Of a stretch of 29,752 nt of DNA, positions 2,705-29,752 are shown one piece after another. The stretch lies in IMG/VR virus record IMGVR_UViG_3300032164_000055, positions 1 to 29,752 of that record. The stretch is one strand, 5' to 3'. The notes under the pieces were generated by a model, which saw only the letters and a program-made list of their open reading frames with translations, was not told the DNA's origin and searched no databases. Source of the stretch: a virus. Both the position numbers and the translations under genes were made by a program. How positions within the stretch are numbered: position 1 is the stretch's first letter; each line of letters opens with the position of its first letter.

Positions 2705-2938
2705 CTAGTGTTTTGGGCCGCGCAACACTCTGTTGTTAACGGGATCGATGGGGTACCACCGTTTGTCGATGCGGTCAAAGGCTTGGGTGATACCACGTTG
2801 TCTGGCTTCGGGCAAGATGTCCCGTAATTGTCCGTGCAGCTTTTTTCCGTCAAGGAGTTGGATCATCCATTGGGCAGACGGGATGGACGGAACATTGTCG
2901 GGGCTAGTCCTTTTCAGGGCATAATTGGTTCGGCTCAT
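2705..2938 (-). CDS. Small protein of unknown function
   Basis: A 77-residue, basic, soluble protein (MSRTNYALKRTS...RGPKH). I recognise no family. The central AQWMIQLLDGKKLHGQLRDILPEARQRGI is helical in character, and the C terminus is positively charged, which would fit a nucleic-acid or virion contact. It starts 24 bases after the metallopeptidase stop, with a GTTCT element seven bases before the ATG, and ends eight bases before the next gene. Tight spacing on both sides supports a real gene. Confidence 0.6.
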   Translation of the reverse strand: MSRTNYALKRTSPDNVPSIPSAQWMIQLLDGKKLHGQLRDILPEARQRGITQAFDRIDKRWYPIDPVNNRVLRGPKH

Positions 2939-2945
2939 ACTGGGT

Positions 2946-2950
2946 AGAAC
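2946..2950 (-). promoter_or_regulatory. GTTCT element, 7 nt before the 77-aa gene
   Basis: The minus strand reads GTTCTACCCAGT then ATG, in the 24-base gap between two genes, with no Shine-Dalgarno sequence. Confidence 0.35.
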
Positions 2951-2962
2951 AGCATGTGCTCT

Positions 2963-3772
2963 TCAGGCACCGGTGGGCGCTGCTTTACTTTTCTTCCACT
3001 CCTCGAAACTGGGGATCTCGCTCACAATAGCCCAGCCCGTGCGCAGCATGCCATGCGCGACACCGTCTTTTATGGGGTATCCGATGGCGGGAACTATGCC
3101 TAGGCCCACCGTGCTCAAGTCGTAATAGCCGTGGAATACGCCGTGCACAGCCTGCCCTTGCGGATCGCGCATAACGATCGGTAGTCCTGGGGGAGCTTTC
3201 ATGCCAGCGGTGCTTTCCTTGTGCATTTGGTAGGCGTACTTGCCAAAACGTTTACGATTTAGAGGCGTCATCGGGGCGTAACGGTCCAGTTTGCCTCGGC
3301 GCAGCAGGTCGCCCACATCCTTTCCCGCGCGGCGCGCTCCGCCCACGGCGTTGCGGGCCAGGGCCTGCATTTCCAGCGGGTCACGCAGGTACTTGTCGAT
3401 GTCTATTCGCCCGTGTTCATCAGAGTAATGGTCAAGTTTGTCAGCGGTTATCTGTAGAGGATCGCCTCCGCTGGCGCTGGCGCTGAGCATCTGATCGCGA
3501 TGGGTCAATTCGTGCTCGATGACGATGCGCAGGCGCTCGTCTTCCATCCTAAAAATCAGGGGGTTGAGAGTGATCCATTCGCCGTTCATGGCCCCCACCG
3601 CCCCCGTAGCCTTAATGGCGGGGTCGTCGGGGTCGAATCGGATATAGGTGCCTTCCAGCTTCTCGTTGGCGTCCTGCCAGGTAGGCGCGGAACGGATAAT
3701 AGCCAGAATGTCTTCGACCTCGTCGGAGGTCGGTCCAGTCAATAGTTCCAAAATTTGGCGCGCTTTCACCAC
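2963..3772 (-). CDS. Zincin-type metallopeptidase
   Basis: A 269-residue protein with the zinc motif HELTH at residues 87-91 inside the helix RIVIEHELTHRDQM: H87 and H91 bind zinc and E88 is the catalytic base. About 40 residues later YLRDPLEMQALA offers E134 as a likely third ligand, as in many small phage and plasmid zincins. The N terminus MVKARQIL resembles that of the 91-aa protein downstream. Residues 180-269 are not recognised. The start is GTG (a second GTG follows at once) with no clear ribosome binding site. The target is unknown; cleavage of a virion or host protein is possible. It lies 18 bases after the glycosylase gene and is surely cotranscribed with it. Confidence 0.7.
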   Translation of the reverse strand: MVKARQILELLTGPTSDEVEDILAIIRSAPTWQDANEKLEGTYIRFDPDDPAIKATGAVGAMNGEWITLNPLIFRMEDERLRIVIEHELTHRDQMLSASASGGDPLQITADKLDHYSDEHGRIDIDKYLRDPLEMQALARNAVGGARRAGKDVGDLLRRGKLDRYAPMTPLNRKRFGKYAYQMHKESTAGMKAPPGLPIVMRDPQGQAVHGVFHGYYDLSTVGLGIVPAIGYPIKDGVAHGMLRTGWAIVSEIPSFEEWKKSKAAPTGA

Positions 3773-3790
3773 TATAGATATCTGGGCAGG

Positions 3791-4417
3791 CTAGGGGTTT
3801 CCGTCTACCCAGAAGCCAAAGGCTTCCGCCAAATCGGCCCGAAACTGTTCGCGGGCCTTTTCCGTCGTGCTGCGCAGGACGTAGGCAGGGTGCCAGGTAG
3901 GCAGTACGGGCCAATTCTTGAATGTTCGGTATGTGCCTCTCACCTCGCTTATCGATTCGTTGACGCCAAGGCTTTCCAAAGCCGTGCTGCCGAGGGTGAT
4001 GATGATGCCCGGGTCGAGGATCTCAATCTGGGCGTACAGGTAAGACAAGCATTCCACCAGTTCTATCTTGGCAGGAGCACGGTTGGAAACGCCTAGCGGA
4101 GGGTTTGGGCGGCACTTGAGGGCATTGGCCAGAAAGACGTCTTTGCGCTCGATCTCAAATTCGGCCAGGACCTCCATTAGCAGTTGACCAGCTCGGCCCA
4201 CGAAAGGCAGGCCGATGGCGTCCTCGTCCATTCCAGGGGCCTCGCCGATGAAAAGTACGCCATCCCGCCGAACGGAACCCTCCCCGGGCACCGCGAGCGT
4301 GCGCACTTTGCTTAAAGGGCATCGCTGGCAGGTAACGATTTGGCGTTCGAGGTAGGCAAGGCGCTCGGCGATCGTGGCCCCAGAGTACCTAGCGAGGGCA
4401 ATGGAATCTGTTCTCAC
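3791..4417 (-). CDS. Uracil-DNA glycosylase, 4Fe-4S (family 4) type
   Basis: A 208-residue enzyme of the UDG superfamily. Motif A is GEAPGMDED (59-67), followed by GLPFVGRAGQLL, and motif B is HPAY (176-179). Cysteines at 30, 33 (CQRC), 102 (KCRP) and 123 (ECLS) fit the iron-sulfur cluster of family 4 enzymes. The family removes uracil from single- and double-stranded DNA and starts base excision repair. Its presence implies that this phage does not use uracil in place of thymine. The GTG start at 4417 keeps the full family length and lies eight bases after a GTTCT element. It is divergent from the small membrane protein gene at 4441, with 23 bases between the two starts, and is first in the left minus-strand operon. 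Confidence 0.9.
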   Translation of the reverse strand: MRTDSIALARYSGATIAERLAYLERQIVTCQRCPLSKVRTLAVPGEGSVRRDGVLFIGEAPGMDEDAIGLPFVGRAGQLLMEVLAEFEIERKDVFLANALKCRPNPPLGVSNRAPAKIELVECLSYLYAQIEILDPGIIITLGSTALESLGVNESISEVRGTYRTFKNWPVLPTWHPAYVLRSTTEKAREQFRADLAEAFGFWVDGNP

Positions 4418-23227: not shown

Positions 23228-25519
23228 ATGGCAAACAATATTACCGCCAAAACGTTCCCCGGCGTTTACACGAAGATCGTGGACCGAAGCTTTTTGATTC
23301 CGCAGGTGAGCCGGTTTCGTTGCGGGCTCGTCGGCGTTGCGCGCAAAGGGCCTTTCGACACCCCCACTGCGGTTCACTCGCTCACTGAATTTTTGGACAC
23401 GTTTGGACTTCCGTTGGACGGCCAGTACTATCTGGCCAACGCGGTGGCCATCCTGTCCGACATCACCGACGGTATGAAGGTGGTGCGCGTGGGCAAGCAC
23501 CTCCTGGAAAATTCGGGGGCGAAGTTTTATGCGACTACGGCGGAATCGGTCGGCACCATCGCTGGTTATCGCGAGGCCTTGATTTTGAGCCCTACGTTCC
23601 AGGGAGACGTGGTGTACGCCACAATGAAGCAGGCGGGCAAGCCGAGCACCGTCAATGCCCAGGTTGACTCCGTTGGAACCATCACGGATCACCCCACGCT
23701 TTCGGACGCCGCCTTGGTTCGGTTCACGATGAACGCAGGCGATCCGTTTCCAGTCAAAGCGGCCTACGACAGCGCGGGAGCGGACGTTTACTATTCGGTG
23801 GGTGTGCCAGGGGCCAATTCTGCTGAAGCCGTCTTGTACACCACAACGTACGGGTCCAACTCGACGGATTACGAGGACAATCCCATCTATGGTGGCCCGC
23901 TGGCCTTGACCTGTTCTGGCCAGAAAGGTGCCTACGAATTTCAGTTGAGCGCCGCCTGCATCCCGCAGTACGGAGCGCTGGTGGCAAACGACCGCTTGAA
24001 GATCAAGCAGCCCTACCGGTCCACAACCTGGGAAGTCATGGTGAAGCAAGTTTTGCCCACGGGTGTGGTCAAACTTGAAACCAGCGACCGCACGGACAAG
24101 GGATACCAAGCCCTGTCGCTGCAAGACAACTACACCAATGCCACAATCCACCGCAGCTCGGGCAAAGTCGCGCACCTGTACTTGCAGGCTGCCTCAGCAG
24201 GTGATTGGGCAAACGGTGAAGACCCCAGCACGGGATTGTTCGTAAAAGTTCGGCCTGGCGGCCCTTCAGGCACCAAGAAGCTTGAAGTTTACGAAAATGG
24301 CGCTCTTCGGGAAACGATCGACGGCTTGTTTGACGGCGCGAGCACGGGCACAAACAGCTATGTTTCGCGCATCAATGCCAAGTCGGCCTACATCACTGTG
24401 TCCGAGGTCTTTAGCTCTCCGAGTACTGACCCTACCACGCAGTTTATCCCGGCCAATTATGCCTACGGTTGGGCTAGCGGGACGCCGGTTAACGCTGGAG
24501 TCGGCGATAGCGGCGGCTGTTTCAGAGGCGGCTACAACGGTGAGGCCGCGTCCTCTACCGACTTCGTTGGTGGATTCGATACGACGACGGAGCGTTTCAC
24601 GGGTATCCAGTCCTTTGTGGACACCGACAACGTCAAGATCGACATCTTGGCCTGCCCTGGCATCACGGATGCCACGCCTGGCTCGACGCCAAACGATACC
24701 TATGAGCCGTTTAGCGATGCGGACACGACGGGCGTCCATCGCAAGATGGCGGAGGTGGCGCGGGCCGTCAATGCCTTGGCCTTGATCGAGGTACCGCCCG
24801 GCATCAATGCACGAGGCGCGGTTGATTGGCACAACGGCACGGGTCTCTACTCGGGACGTGGCCGAATCGATAGCTGCAATATTTCCTGCTTCTGGAACTG
24901 GTTTACGATCACTGATCCGTTTACGCAGGAAGACAAGTGGGTTCCGCCCACCTTGGGCGCACTGCGCTGTCTGGCCTACACCTTCGACCGCGATAAGCCC
25001 TGGTACGTGGCAGCGGGCGACATTCGCGGGCTTATCCCTGAGGCCAAGACGGTTGAATTTGAGCACGTTAGCGAGGAAACGAAGCAGGCGATGTACGGTA
25101 ATGGCCAGTCGGTCAATCCGATATTGCTGGATGGCGGGCAGATCAAGATCTGGGGCGAGCGCACGATGCAGATCGCCGAAAGCCGCCTGTCGGCTAACCA
25201 CAACGTGATTCTCGTCAATTACGTGGTCAGCAACTTGGCCACTGTTGGCCGTAGGTTCGTATTCGAACCCAACGATCCTGAGCTGTTGATGCGTGTTCAC
25301 TTGGCCTTCACTGAGTTTTTGGAAAAGGTCAAAACCGAACGGGGCCTTGAAGATTACAACTTGGTGATCGACAGCAGCAACAATAACGCGGACACCCGCA
25401 ACCGGCGCGAAGTTATTGTTGATTTGGCCCTGGTTCCTACGGAATCCGTTGAGCGGATTTACATCACGGCTACGGTCTTTGCCAGCGGGGCGAAGATTAA
25501 CGCGCTTACGTCGGAATAG
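23228..25519 (+). CDS. Tail sheath protein
   Basis: A 763-residue contractile sheath protein. The N terminus reads FPGVYTKIVDRSF, the usual sheath start. The C-terminal 200 residues carry the conserved domain: QSVNPILLDGGQIKIWGERTM, ANHNVILVNYVVSNLATVGRRFVFEPNDPELLMRVHLAFTEFL, GLEDYNLVIDSSNNNADTRNRREVIVDLALVPTESVERIYI. The core domain fixes the subunit to tube and neighbours; the middle insertion domains (about 150-450) are expected on the surface. It is longer than T4 gp18 (659 residues), with the extra length in the middle. The ribosome binding site AGAGGT is ten bases before the ATG, one of the two best in the window, fitting very high expression. The tube gene follows after 18 bases. Confidence 0.95.
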   Translation: MANNITAKTFPGVYTKIVDRSFLIPQVSRFRCGLVGVARKGPFDTPTAVHSLTEFLDTFGLPLDGQYYLANAVAILSDITDGMKVVRVGKHLLENSGAKFYATTAESVGTIAGYREALILSPTFQGDVVYATMKQAGKPSTVNAQVDSVGTITDHPTLSDAALVRFTMNAGDPFPVKAAYDSAGADVYYSVGVPGANSAEAVLYTTTYGSNSTDYEDNPIYGGPLALTCSGQKGAYEFQLSAACIPQYGALVANDRLKIKQPYRSTTWEVMVKQVLPTGVVKLETSDRTDKGYQALSLQDNYTNATIHRSSGKVAHLYLQAASAGDWANGEDPSTGLFVKVRPGGPSGTKKLEVYENGALRETIDGLFDGASTGTNSYVSRINAKSAYITVSEVFSSPSTDPTTQFIPANYAYGWASGTPVNAGVGDSGGCFRGGYNGEAASSTDFVGGFDTTTERFTGIQSFVDTDNVKIDILACPGITDATPGSTPNDTYEPFSDADTTGVHRKMAEVARAVNALALIEVPPGINARGAVDWHNGTGLYSGRGRIDSCNISCFWNWFTITDPFTQEDKWVPPTLGALRCLAYTFDRDKPWYVAAGDIRGLIPEAKTVEFEHVSEETKQAMYGNGQSVNPILLDGGQIKIWGERTMQIAESRLSANHNVILVNYVVSNLATVGRRFVFEPNDPELLMRVHLAFTEFLEKVKTERGLEDYNLVIDSSNNNADTRNRREVIVDLALVPTESVERIYITATVFASGAKINALTSE

Positions 25520-26709: not shown

Positions 26710-27066
26710 ATGATTATTCACTGCACAGATGGCGCAGTTGTGGGCGAAACTTCATCGGTCATGTTTACGATCGGCCCCCAGCAAGGTCCTATCGCCGCGC
26801 TGCTGGTTCTCAAGAACTCTGGGGTGAATACGCTCAACTACCGGCTCCAAGAATTTAACGGATCAACGTGGGTTGACCTGGGTGCCTCGGGAACCGACTT
26901 TTACACAACCCTCAGTGCTAATGAGGTTCGGGCGTTCAAGGTGACCTCCACCTATCCTCAGGTCCAATGTGTGGCTAATGCGAGTGGCGGGGCTTACCTG
27001 GACATTTCGCTGACGAGGTACTACAACCGGCCTTCGGGCGGCTCGTTCCCGATCCTCGCCCTCTAA
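26710..27066 (+). CDS. Small beta-rich virion-type protein
   Basis: A 118-residue protein with strands throughout (AALLVLKNSGVNTLNYRLQEFNGSTWVDLGASG, TLSANEVRAFKVTSTYPQVQCVANASGGAYLDISLTRYYNR). The LKNSGVNTLNYRLQE segment is typical of small immunoglobulin-like phage proteins, such as head or tail decoration. It is last in the sheath operon, and its stop overlaps the convergent nuclease gene by four bases. No family is named. Confidence 0.55.
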   Translation: MIIHCTDGAVVGETSSVMFTIGPQQGPIAALLVLKNSGVNTLNYRLQEFNGSTWVDLGASGTDFYTTLSANEVRAFKVTSTYPQVQCVANASGGAYLDISLTRYYNRPSGGSFPILAL

Positions 27067-27935
27067 TCTTTGGGGATATCCTCTTCGTCGCCATCGATAA
27101 CAGTGGCGGTGCGCTTGCTGTACCGACGGTAAAAAGGTCGATAAAAGTCCATCAGCCCAGGCAAGCGCAACTTTTCGGCCACGGCTAGATCTGCGGGGAC
27201 GATGGGGGCAGGTTCAGGGACATCGGGAACGTCCGTGTGCAGCAGCGTCAGATCCAGATCGGCCAAGAACCCGTCTCGGGTCTGAGCCGGTATTTGAGCC
27301 AAAATAACATCGAATGCTTCCTCGAAGGTCATTTCGGGCGTTACCGCTTCGAACAGCTTTTTTACCTTTGCAGGCCCCCAGCCCTTGATGCCACCTACCA
27401 GGTCCACCTTGTCGCCCAGGATGGCTTGGGCAATGGCTATCTGCCTGGGGCTTTTTACATGCCAGTGATCCAGAATGGCACGGTTATTGAGCACGGCTTT
27501 CTTGTTCAAGGAGTAGTAGAAGGTGTGATGGCCAGCCAGCTGTTGGAGGTCCTTGTCGCCGCTGACCACGTACACAGTGGTATCCTGGGCGCTGTTTTCG
27601 ACTGCCGTGGCCACAATGTCATCGGCTTCGTACCTGTCCGACACGTGCTGGGCGGCATGGAACAGCAGATCAAGGTGCCCTACAACCAGTTCGGCAACGG
27701 CGTAGTAGTCATTGGGCTTGGGCTGCCGGTGCTTGTCGCGCCCCCCAGCGCCATCCCAGGCAAAAAGCAGTCTATCTGGTCGCGATCCTAAATTTCCATT
27801 ATGGTCATTCAGCAGTGCGATGACGGTGTTCAAAGCGGCACACAGGGCGTCGCGGGGATTGCCCGTGGAGGCCTGCACCGCGTAGAAAGCACGGGCGTAA
27901 ACGCTGTTGCCGTCAACGATAAGATCTGTGGTCAT
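27063..27935 (-). CDS. 5'-nuclease, FEN / T4 RNase H type
   Basis: A 290-residue protein of the 5'-3' exonuclease/flap endonuclease family. Metal-binding acids are visible: D8 (IVDGN), D61, E103/D105/D106 (YEADDIVATA), D127 and D129 (VVSGDKDLQQL), D175 and D178 in GDKVDLVGGIKGWGPAKVKKL, which is the helix-three-turn-helix DNA-binding block. The enzyme removes RNA primers and 5' flaps during lagging-strand synthesis. The last 70 residues, with a proline-rich stretch (PDVPEPAPIVP), are less conserved. The start overlaps the previous stop (AAATGA). It is the last gene of the right-hand minus-strand operon with the baseplate hub genes, an odd place for a replication enzyme. Confidence 0.92.
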   Translation of the reverse strand: MTTDLIVDGNSVYARAFYAVQASTGNPRDALCAALNTVIALLNDHNGNLGSRPDRLLFAWDGAGGRDKHRQPKPNDYYAVAELVVGHLDLLFHAAQHVSDRYEADDIVATAVENSAQDTTVYVVSGDKDLQQLAGHHTFYYSLNKKAVLNNRAILDHWHVKSPRQIAIAQAILGDKVDLVGGIKGWGPAKVKKLFEAVTPEMTFEEAFDVILAQIPAQTRDGFLADLDLTLLHTDVPDVPEPAPIVPADLAVAEKLRLPGLMDFYRPFYRRYSKRTATVIDGDEEDIPKD

Positions 27936-28126
27936 TTAGAGGCTAGGTTTTTGTTGTCCTCCACGAGGCGTTCGTTGCGCCAGGTTGTAAACAGGTCCAG
28001 GACATGGTCAGACAGCGTGGCCAGATCAACGACAAAGCCCTTATTGTCGTCCCAGGCGAGATTGAATATTTGCCGCCAGCGCTCGTCTATCCGCGCCGAG
28101 GCGGCCCGAACGAAAAAACTCGGCAT
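27932..28126 (-). CDS. gp51-position small protein, overlapping frame (possible frameshift product)
   Basis: A 64-residue frame (MPSFFVRAASARIDERWRQIFNLAWDDNKGFVVDLATLSDHVLDLFTTWRNERLVEDNKNLASK). It starts inside the end of the gp26-like gene and overlaps it by 86 bases. In T4, gene 51 (baseplate hub assembly) follows gene 26. The ATG has no leader of its own. A run of six T (28118-28113 on the minus strand) lies just after the start, in codons TTT TTT C of the upstream frame. A +1 slip there would fuse this frame to the gp26-like protein. The long helix after residue 10 is plausible for an assembly factor. Alternatives are independent initiation, or a real frame broken by an indel. Confidence 0.55.
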   Translation of the reverse strand: MPSFFVRAASARIDERWRQIFNLAWDDNKGFVVDLATLSDHVLDLFTTWRNERLVEDNKNLASK

Positions 28127-28874
28127 CGAGGGTCATGCGGAAGTAGTATAGGTAGCCACAGTGTGTACAGCGCTGGGGCAGCCTAAGGTCAAGGTGAGGC
28201 GTCAGCAAATCTTCTTGCTGCTCCAAAAAGGCGGCATCACCTGTGGGAAGGGCCAAGTACCACTGCACCATTTCTTGGATGCGTTCAGGCTGCGTTCCGT
28301 TTACGCTAACAATGCCCGCAATTGCGTGGGCAATGTGATCAGAAACCAGAGCCTTGTTTTCGGGAGCGCGGCTGCCTATCTTCAGTTCGTCCTCCACGCG
28401 CAGCGGCCTGAGTTCGATGACGTCCTGGCATTTGGGAAGCGTTAAACTATCCGATCCCTTGTAGTCTGGGCCTTTTGGGCTGATGCAGGTCAAATCCTCC
28501 GATCTTATTTTGTCCACTTCTTCGTTGGCGCAGTCGGGGCAGATTGCTCCGTACTCGATGTAGCTGTCATTTTGGATCGAACGAGAGCACAGCAGCACGG
28601 CATTTACGTCGCCGAGGACAAAATCGTTCAAAAGGCAGCCGTTGAGGTTGCTGACCTTGGCTAGCACATTAAACAGAGCGCCCTGCTTCTCTTCTGGAGT
28701 TCCGCGCTGCATGGTGGTGTTCAGCCAGTCGTCCACGATCGAATCCCACGGAAAGACGGTTATTTTTCCGTCAGGAAAGGCTGTTCGATTGGCATAACCA
28801 CCCGAGGGTAGCACGATCTCCTTTTTGTCTTTTTCGCGGCGGGGCCGCATATCGGATATGTTTGATTTGAGCAT
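28041..28874 (-). CDS. Baseplate hub protein, T4 gp26-like
   Basis: A 277-residue protein. CPDC (112-115) and CTHC (236-239) give a four-cysteine zinc site, as in the T4 gp26 baseplate family, and the closing CGYLYYFRMTLDAEFF is a typical late element. In T4-like phages such proteins act in hub assembly rather than as major structural parts. A GTG 24 bases upstream (overlapping the spike stop) is possible; ATG at 28874 is preferred, being seven bases after a GTTCT element and giving a sensible N terminus. It follows the spike gene and overlaps the gp51-position frame. The last 23 residues past EFF are Arg/Ala-rich and may be the unshifted end product only. Confidence 0.75.
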   Translation of the reverse strand: MLKSNISDMRPRREKDKKEIVLPSGGYANRTAFPDGKITVFPWDSIVDDWLNTTMQRGTPEEKQGALFNVLAKVSNLNGCLLNDFVLGDVNAVLLCSRSIQNDSYIEYGAICPDCANEEVDKIRSEDLTCISPKGPDYKGSDSLTLPKCQDVIELRPLRVEDELKIGSRAPENKALVSDHIAHAIAGIVSVNGTQPERIQEMVQWYLALPTGDAAFLEQQEDLLTPHLDLRLPQRCTHCGYLYYFRMTLDAEFFRSGRLGADRRALAANIQSRLGRQ

Positions 28875-28890: not shown

Positions 28891-29752
28891 TTACGCACCG
28901 AATATGGTCGTGGAAAGGATCTCTTGGGTAAGGGGCTGTATCGTTCCGTAGGGCGTAACGATGGGCGGGCTGGTCGGTGATCCGGCCTCTCCGCTGCTGT
29001 GGGTGTGCAGGGCTAGCCAAAGGAGCAAGTTTTCCAGGAACAACCTGAGCCGGTTGCCAAGAACAAACGGCTCGATGCTGCCAACGCCTAGGTTTAGGGT
29101 GGTGCCATAGTCGAGCAACATTTCTGCCGAGCTGGCCACGGTTAGCGCGGCCTGGCCATCAACGCGGACGTCGCCCGACACCAGGAGCTCAAAGTCGGAA
29201 TATCCAGTGATGGATGCGAGGCCCGAAATATAGGCGGTGAGCTGGTTTCCTAGCGTAAGGGTCAGATCACCCGTCATGGTTTCGATAGAGGCATCGTTGC
29301 ACATGACGTTGAGCGACTGCCCCAGCTGGATGTAAAAGTCATCGAGCAGGAAAAGCGTGGCGTCGCGCCCCTCGTCGTTGATCATAAACATCTGGCCTGC
29401 TGCGGTGCGCAGCATGACCTGTCCATCTGGGAAAGCGGTAGATTTATCGAGCAGAAAGATTTGGTAGCCACTGGCTGTGCTCATGGTTATGCTGCCTGCA
29501 TTCCACTCCACGGTGTGGCCATAGCGGGTCCAGGCCCCGCGCTTGGGCTTGCCTACTTTTCCGTCGGTTTCGGTGTACTGGTGAAGCTTGAAGGCCTTGG
29601 CTTGGTCTTTGGTCTGCATCAGCCAGGACCACACGGGTTTTTCGGGTTCCCCGTCCAGGAATTGGACACATACCTGATCCCCCGGCTCGGGCAGCCAGTC
29701 TGCGCCGCCTGATCTGGAAGACCCGCCCGAGGGTAGCCCTAGTGGAATGGCC
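28891..29752 (-). CDS. Baseplate central spike, gp5/VgrG-like (5' end outside window)
   Basis: The minus-strand frame is open to the right edge and so lacks its start. Reading in from 29751 it gives AIPLGLPSGGSSRSGGADW, then LPEPGDQVCVQFLDGEPEKPVWSW, the hallmark OB-fold end of gp5, gpV and VgrG spikes. The last 200 residues are repeated short beta strands (SLNVMCNDASIETMTGDLTLTLGNQLTAYISGLASITG) that would form a trimeric beta helix or prism. No lysozyme domain lies between the OB fold and the beta part, unlike T4 gp5. A GTG at 29634 is only an internal codon. It heads the operon with the gp26-like protein and the 5'-nuclease. Confidence 0.82.
   Translation of the reverse strand, partial: AIPLGLPSGGSSRSGGADWLPEPGDQVCVQFLDGEPEKPVWSWLMQTKDQAKAFKLHQYTETDGKVGKPKRGAWTRYGHTVEWNAGSITMSTASGYQIFLLDKSTAFPDGQVMLRTAAGQMFMINDEGRDATLFLLDDFYIQLGQSLNVMCNDASIETMTGDLTLTLGNQLTAYISGLASITGYSDFELLVSGDVRVDGQAALTVASSAEMLLDYGTTLNLGVGSIEPFVLGNRLRLFLENLLLWLALHTHSSGEAGSPTSPPIVTPYGTIQPLTQEILSTTIFGA

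Follow-up and report, generated by a model that had tools for sequence, protein, structure and literature searches.

The window analysed here, a stretch of 29,752 nt from a viral record (IMGVR_UViG_3300032164_000055), carries two overlapping reading frames on its minus strand, designated ORF A and ORF B. ORF A (28874 to 28041) encodes a gp26-like protein of 277 residues (PHROG150 / T4_baseplate-like) and is a candidate short tail assembly chaperone gene, and ORF B (28126 to 27932, with a TGA stop at 27934 to 27932) lies in the +1 frame relative to it. The frame of ORF A offers both an ATG at 28874 and a GTG at 28898, and the conserved starts of the relatives indicate that the ATG is probably the one used. 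The GTG, which was the start first listed for this gene, has no counterpart in the relatives. Upstream is a gp5-like baseplate gene with an OB-fold (28891 to 29751, minus strand; PF04717, 2e-5) that runs off the window, and downstream is a 5'-3' exonuclease gene (27063 to 27935, minus strand; PF02739, 1.7e-20) whose ATG overlaps the stop codon of ORF B in the sequence ATGA. The pair sits between these two genes and not beside the tail tube or tape measure gene, and the tail tube and sheath genes of the window are found on the other strand. The first 300 residues of the tail sheath (23228 to 25519, plus strand, 763 aa) are unlike those of most sheaths, and database sheaths align with it only from about residue 313.

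Direct reading of the minus strand places the codons GAG TTT TTT CGT (28121 to 28110) in the zero frame of ORF A, near its end, with the T6 run at 28118 to 28113 and the next C at 28112. This site and the +1 relation of the two frames had been described in the initial annotation and were confirmed, while the 54 codons that it had counted as open past the T6 run were found to be 59 codons, ending at the TGA. Slippage of a phenylalanine tRNA from UUU to UUC had also been proposed, and the sequence permits it: a tRNA-Phe on the second UUU (28115 to 28113) can re-pair one base forward with UUC (28114 to 28112), after which the next codon would be GUU. The +1 C-terminal extension, a T-like domain of 59 codons and a stop (28111 to 27932, minus strand), would then follow residues 1 to 254 of A in a predicted A-B fusion of 313 residues. 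Past the slip, ORF B overlaps ORF A for approximately 23 codons.

Profile comparisons place ORF A in the gp26 / T4_baseplate family (PF12322, PHROG150). ORF A matched PHROG150 ('baseplate hub') with an E value of 5.8e-6, and its score against PF12322 was 18.2 bits, which is under the curated cut-off of 24.5 bits. The gp26-like protein of phage Mel-JY01 matches PHROG150 at 5.8e-11 and has no PF12322 match, indicating that the Pfam cut-off misses distant members. When a clade profile of A was used in profile-profile comparisons, the P value was 5.8e-23 against the family profile and 4.5e-5 against T4 gp26. Profile searches with ORF B gave no family match, and a search of the PDB sequences using the gp26-family profile returned nothing convincing.

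A and B were modelled separately and not as a fusion. The AlphaFold2 model of A had a pLDDT of 84, with confidence collapsing right after the Phe-Phe codons, and its closest folds in the PDB were YqbN (3klu; Z 7.5, rmsd 4.0 over 100 residues), the HK97 tail assembly chaperone (2ob9; Z 5.8, rmsd 4.1 over 97 residues) and 5ir0 (Z 5.2), after which the next match dropped to 3.1. The predicted fold of A resembles those of tail assembly chaperones, a likeness that is suggestive only, as all Z scores are under 8. B, modelled from the copy in a related contig (L128, below), was predicted to be a two-helix hairpin with a pLDDT of 78.

A search with the tail sheath yielded three contigs from related phages, L128 (from a contig of 202,975 bases), L130, which is nearly identical to L128 (99.96%), and L129. 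A second IMG/VR assembly of the same phage, L001, is 99.98% identical to the window. The A proteins of the relatives are 45 to 47% identical to A of the window, and B is 51% identical in L128 and 39% identical in L129 (E values of 3e-14 and 1e-9, respectively), so that ORF B is, by comparison of these sequences, a conserved protein. The +1 relation of the frames is kept in all three relatives, and the 18 nt TTTTTTCGTTCGGGCCGC (28118 to 28101, minus strand), which comprise the T6 run and the next 12 bases, are unchanged in L128, L129 and L130. The codons GAG TTT TTT CGT are likewise invariant among these three apart from the G of GAG. No other 8-codon window of gene A is as well conserved as the stretch represented by TTTTTTCGTTCGGGCCGC, with a nucleotide identity of 0.92 compared with 0.76 for the best window elsewhere. 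The conservation at this locus is far beyond chance. The initial annotation had raised the possibility of an indel in the T run; since the same T6 is present in L001, L128, L129 and L130, a sequencing error in the run was rejected.

The manner in which the overlap varies also points to translation of the +1 frame. Counted at codon positions 1, 2 and 3, the variable sites in the overlap number 9, 4 and 11 in the phase of B and 11, 9 and 4 in the phase of A. Substitutions in the overlap hit the third position of B and largely avoid the second, a pattern opposite to that expected for A; the stretch from the slip to the stop codon of A evolves in the codon phase of B and not in that of A. A profile of B matched the B of +1 relatives with a P value of 4.6e-5. 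As a single sequence, B of the window scored E 1.2 against the profile of distant-relative B (rank 2 of 687 ORFs), which is not significant, and an unrelated frame at 1741 to 1983 on the plus strand outscored it.

Two features of the locus were dropped as evidence for a frameshift. Of 206 alternative frames of the long ORFs in the window, 35 have an overlap of this extent or more, and the geometry of A and B alone is therefore no better than chance. The ATG at 28126 to 28124, a possible start for ORF B, had been reported to lack a ribosome binding site and this had been taken to favour a shift; the first statement holds, as no Shine-Dalgarno sequence precedes the ATG, but the second does not, since most of the window genes checked lack one, ORF A included. 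The scarcity of Shine-Dalgarno sequences among the window genes may say something about the host.

The survey was extended to the wider gp26 family by similarity searches from distant relatives, so that the numbers below are counts of sampled members and not natural frequencies. At least 79 distinct gp26-like genes (less than 95% identity, the window included) have an extension in the +1 frame running across the stop codon, and in all 79 of the distinct +1 members among the matches listed the overlap contains a UUU codon of the zero frame whose next base is U or C. The commonest site, found in most members, is TTT TTT TGG CCT or a close variant, and many relatives have a T7 run. The twelve bases of the window site, GAG TTT TTT CGT, recur unchanged in contig L035, and the site of Bacillus phage SP-15 is GAA TTT TTT CAC. 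The run is only T3 or T4 in some relatives, namely L003 (AAC TTT CTA; AACTTTCTA), Streptomyces phage BRock (CTG TTT CGC; CTGTTTCGC) and L005 (TTCTTTTGG). In L095 (approximately 3700 to 3960) the TTTTTTTGGCCT site is conserved and the extension frame is broken, which probably reflects either degradation of this copy or an indel introduced in assembly. An alignment of 16 sequences was also tried for a profile search, and was too divergent for patterns.

A second group, of at least 11 members, has B in the -1 frame with no separate gene, and 11 of 11 carry an in-frame U-UUU-UUC or U-UUU-UUU near the gp26 stop codon (L028, L030, L032, L033, L116 to L118 and L123 to L126). These include Atu_ph07, Cassandra (PA5oct type), RAS14, XacN1, Munch, GAP32 and Vibrio phage 2.275.O. 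The extension of L032 was observed to be without a start codon.

It is possible that ORF B is instead a separate small gene, translated from the ATG at 28126 by translational coupling and needing no frameshift. Such an ATG is indeed present just upstream of the slip site and in frame in the window and in L129, L003 also has one nearby, and this phage rarely uses Shine-Dalgarno sequences. A separate arrangement does occur in L015 (at approximately 3731) and L020 (at approximately 3722), where the extension is a gene of its own that starts with an ATG just after the gp26 stop codon, and no frameshift is needed in these two. The extension genes of L015 and L020 have extra N-terminal residues. In L128, however, a stop codon closes the B frame three codons upstream of the T run and the ATG is absent; in both L128 and L130 there is no ATG, GTG or TTG for B before the slip, and the first ATG falls in the middle of the domain. 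Separate, well-started genes had been named as the finding that would speak against a shift, and these close relatives have the opposite arrangement. A start codon for B is also missing from 28 of the 79 distinct +1 members among the matches listed, and the conservation maximum in gene A is at the slip codons and not at ATG 28126. A separate start for B is therefore considered unlikely, although the window taken by itself, with its ATG, would also allow an internal start.

Two further explanations accept a change of frame and differ in how it would be brought about. A ribosomal shift of -2 would reach this frame too, adding a further Phe to the product; the T6 run permits -2 re-pairing in this clade, and a -2 shift has been reported for the chaperone of phage Mu. 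The sites CTG TTT CGC and AAC TTT CTA of the relatives, however, give no -2 re-pairing, and we regard a -2 shift as distinctly improbable. Slippage of RNA polymerase on the T run, with one U lost or two added, could also change the frame, and the T6 of the window and the T7 of many relatives are indeed homopolymers. The T3 or T4 runs of L003, BRock and L005 argue against both and favour a +1 shift by the ribosome, leaving polymerase slippage with very little probability. A merely fortuitous open frame for B, with the T6 run an error or a coincidence, has next to no likelihood: overlaps of this length are common in the window, but the T6 is repeated in a second assembly and three related contigs, and B is 39 to 51% conserved.

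A +1 frameshift joining the two frames at the T6 run, as put forward in the initial annotation, is the best explanation of the locus, given the missing B start in L128 and the UUU-U/C codons of the +1 members listed. We consider it highly probable that this is a two-product tail chaperone gene of the gpG/gpGT type, based on a gp26-family protein and operating by +1 slippage at a Phe codon, from UUU to UUC. Most ribosomes would translate ORF A to its stop codon and produce the short chaperone of 277 residues. We infer that in cells a minority of ribosomes would advance by a single base at the two Phe codons close to the end of A and continue in the +1 frame, giving the 313-residue fusion. The most likely slip is that of the tRNA-Phe from UUU to the better-paired UUC, with CGU waiting in the A site. 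In this phage CGU is the rarer codon, used 8.6 times per 1000 compared with 19.4 for GUU. Examination of the slip site revealed no downstream RNA structure beyond that of shuffled sequences (z of 0.1, 0.7 and -0.5), no conserved Shine-Dalgarno-like stimulator and no stop codon.

A forward slip on this codon has precedents. At the error site of E. coli argI, a P-site tRNA on UUU slips forward at UUU-U/C; the argI shift is an error, whereas the shift at the window locus is proposed to be programmed. In prfB (RF2) it is a P-site tRNA on CUU that slips forward, compared with UUU here, and the prfB shift needs a stop codon and a Shine-Dalgarno-like element, neither of which was seen at the window site. 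UUU was among the slippiest codons when the prfB site was randomised, according to a passage in PMC10885494.

The closest functional model is phage lambda, whose gpG and gpGT were reportedly described by Xu, Hendrix and Duda in 2004 as tail assembly chaperones and are reviewed in PMC5009743. As is predicted for the window locus, lambda has a short protein and a minor, frameshifted long form that share an N-terminus and differ by a small C-terminal extension. The lambda shift is -1 and that proposed for the window locus +1, and A differs from the lambda protein in belonging to the gp26 family and in having a Cys-pair (zinc-ribbon-like) part. If the lambda model applies, the tape measure protein would be bound by the A part that both products share and the tail tube protein recruited by the B part, and neither A nor A-B would remain in the virion. 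In SP-15, immuto, Mel-JY01, LIS04 and BRock the pair follows the tail tube gene and precedes the tape measure gene or a large tail gene. This is the place of gpG/gpGT in lambda and it supports the chaperone analogy. The window locus does not have this position, which is usual rather than defining, as T4 lacks it too. The likeness to two-product tail chaperones that had been suggested at the outset is supported by this gene order in the relatives, and the fold predicted for A, although suggestive only, points the same way.

In T4 the same two products come from separate genes with no frameshift, whereas in the window both would come from one gene by the proposed +1 shift. The T4-like chaperones were described by Vladimirov, Gautam and Davidson in 2022 as a short gene and a longer fused copy with no frameshift, as outlined in parts of PMC10885494 and PMC12846349. 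Searches with PF12322 and PHROG150 recovered T4 gp26 as well as gp51, the latter having approximately 46 additional C-terminal residues, and their genes (in L004) are on opposite strands, at 2803 to 3429 (minus) and 3480 to 4229 (plus). The counterpart of A is T4 gp26, and gp51 is equivalent to A with a C-terminal extension. A fusion ending in a gp51-position protein had been predicted, and the fusion stands; B by itself is not the equivalent of gp51, which resembles the whole fusion. The comparison of B with the C-terminal extension of gp51 (P 0.006) is only a hint of homology.

Other tail genes use similar sites. According to a section of PMC6316719, the gp17.5/17.5* chaperone pair of SPP1 is predicted to arise by a -1 shift at UUUUUUC, and the gp17.1/17.1* tail tube pair of SPP1 is made by a +1 shift at CCC-U. 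The UUUUUUC of SPP1 17.5/17.5* is the same seven bases as at the window site, with a -1 shift predicted there, and the U-UUU-UUC heptamer of the -1 members of the gp26 family is that proposed for the SPP1 chaperone. The tail chaperone genes of Vandenendeviridae and Andersonviridae resemble the window in having a conserved T-run, GTTTTT, near the gene end, with an extension frame that is open in all genomes, and unlike the window they shift -1 (PMC12846349).

This bacterial virus very probably makes a second, longer version of its tail chaperone, judging from the sequences compared here, by skipping one base at the U6 run. Chaperone pairs made by frameshift or from two genes are known, and the T4 26/51 pair has been known since 2022; no report of a +1 version of the gp26-family chaperone was found in the open-access literature. 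The frameshifts of tail chaperones are for the most part -1, and phages of the T4 type have been described as the exception that lacks them (PMC5009743; Vladimirov and colleagues as cited in PMC10885494), the lambda-type shifts being widespread 'except T4' in PMC5009743. With a +1 site in at least 79 distinct sequences of the gp26 family, the two genes of T4 look like one solution of three. It seems reasonably likely that one family has reached a short and long pair by three routes, +1 slippage, -1 slippage (in several jumbo phages) and the gene duplication of T4. We lean to a similar degree towards all three routes being placed around the same Phe-Phe codons, the +1 route being that of this phage and many relatives, and it is somewhat favoured that the direction of the slip is set by the local codon phase at the conserved poly-U. 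In the deposited genomes of SP-15, immuto and LIS04 the baseplate hub gene is mis-annotated with respect to its +1 extension, which has been missed or truncated (L031, 3183 to 3383; L026, 3217 to 3440; L029, 3208 to 3439). According to a passage in PMC10885494, a general motif for forward shifting has yet to be identified, and the gp26 family offers natural +1 sites on Phe codons in a set that is well sampled. If the three routes are indeed true, the family would be a natural experiment in which the direction of frameshifting has changed while the fusion protein was kept.
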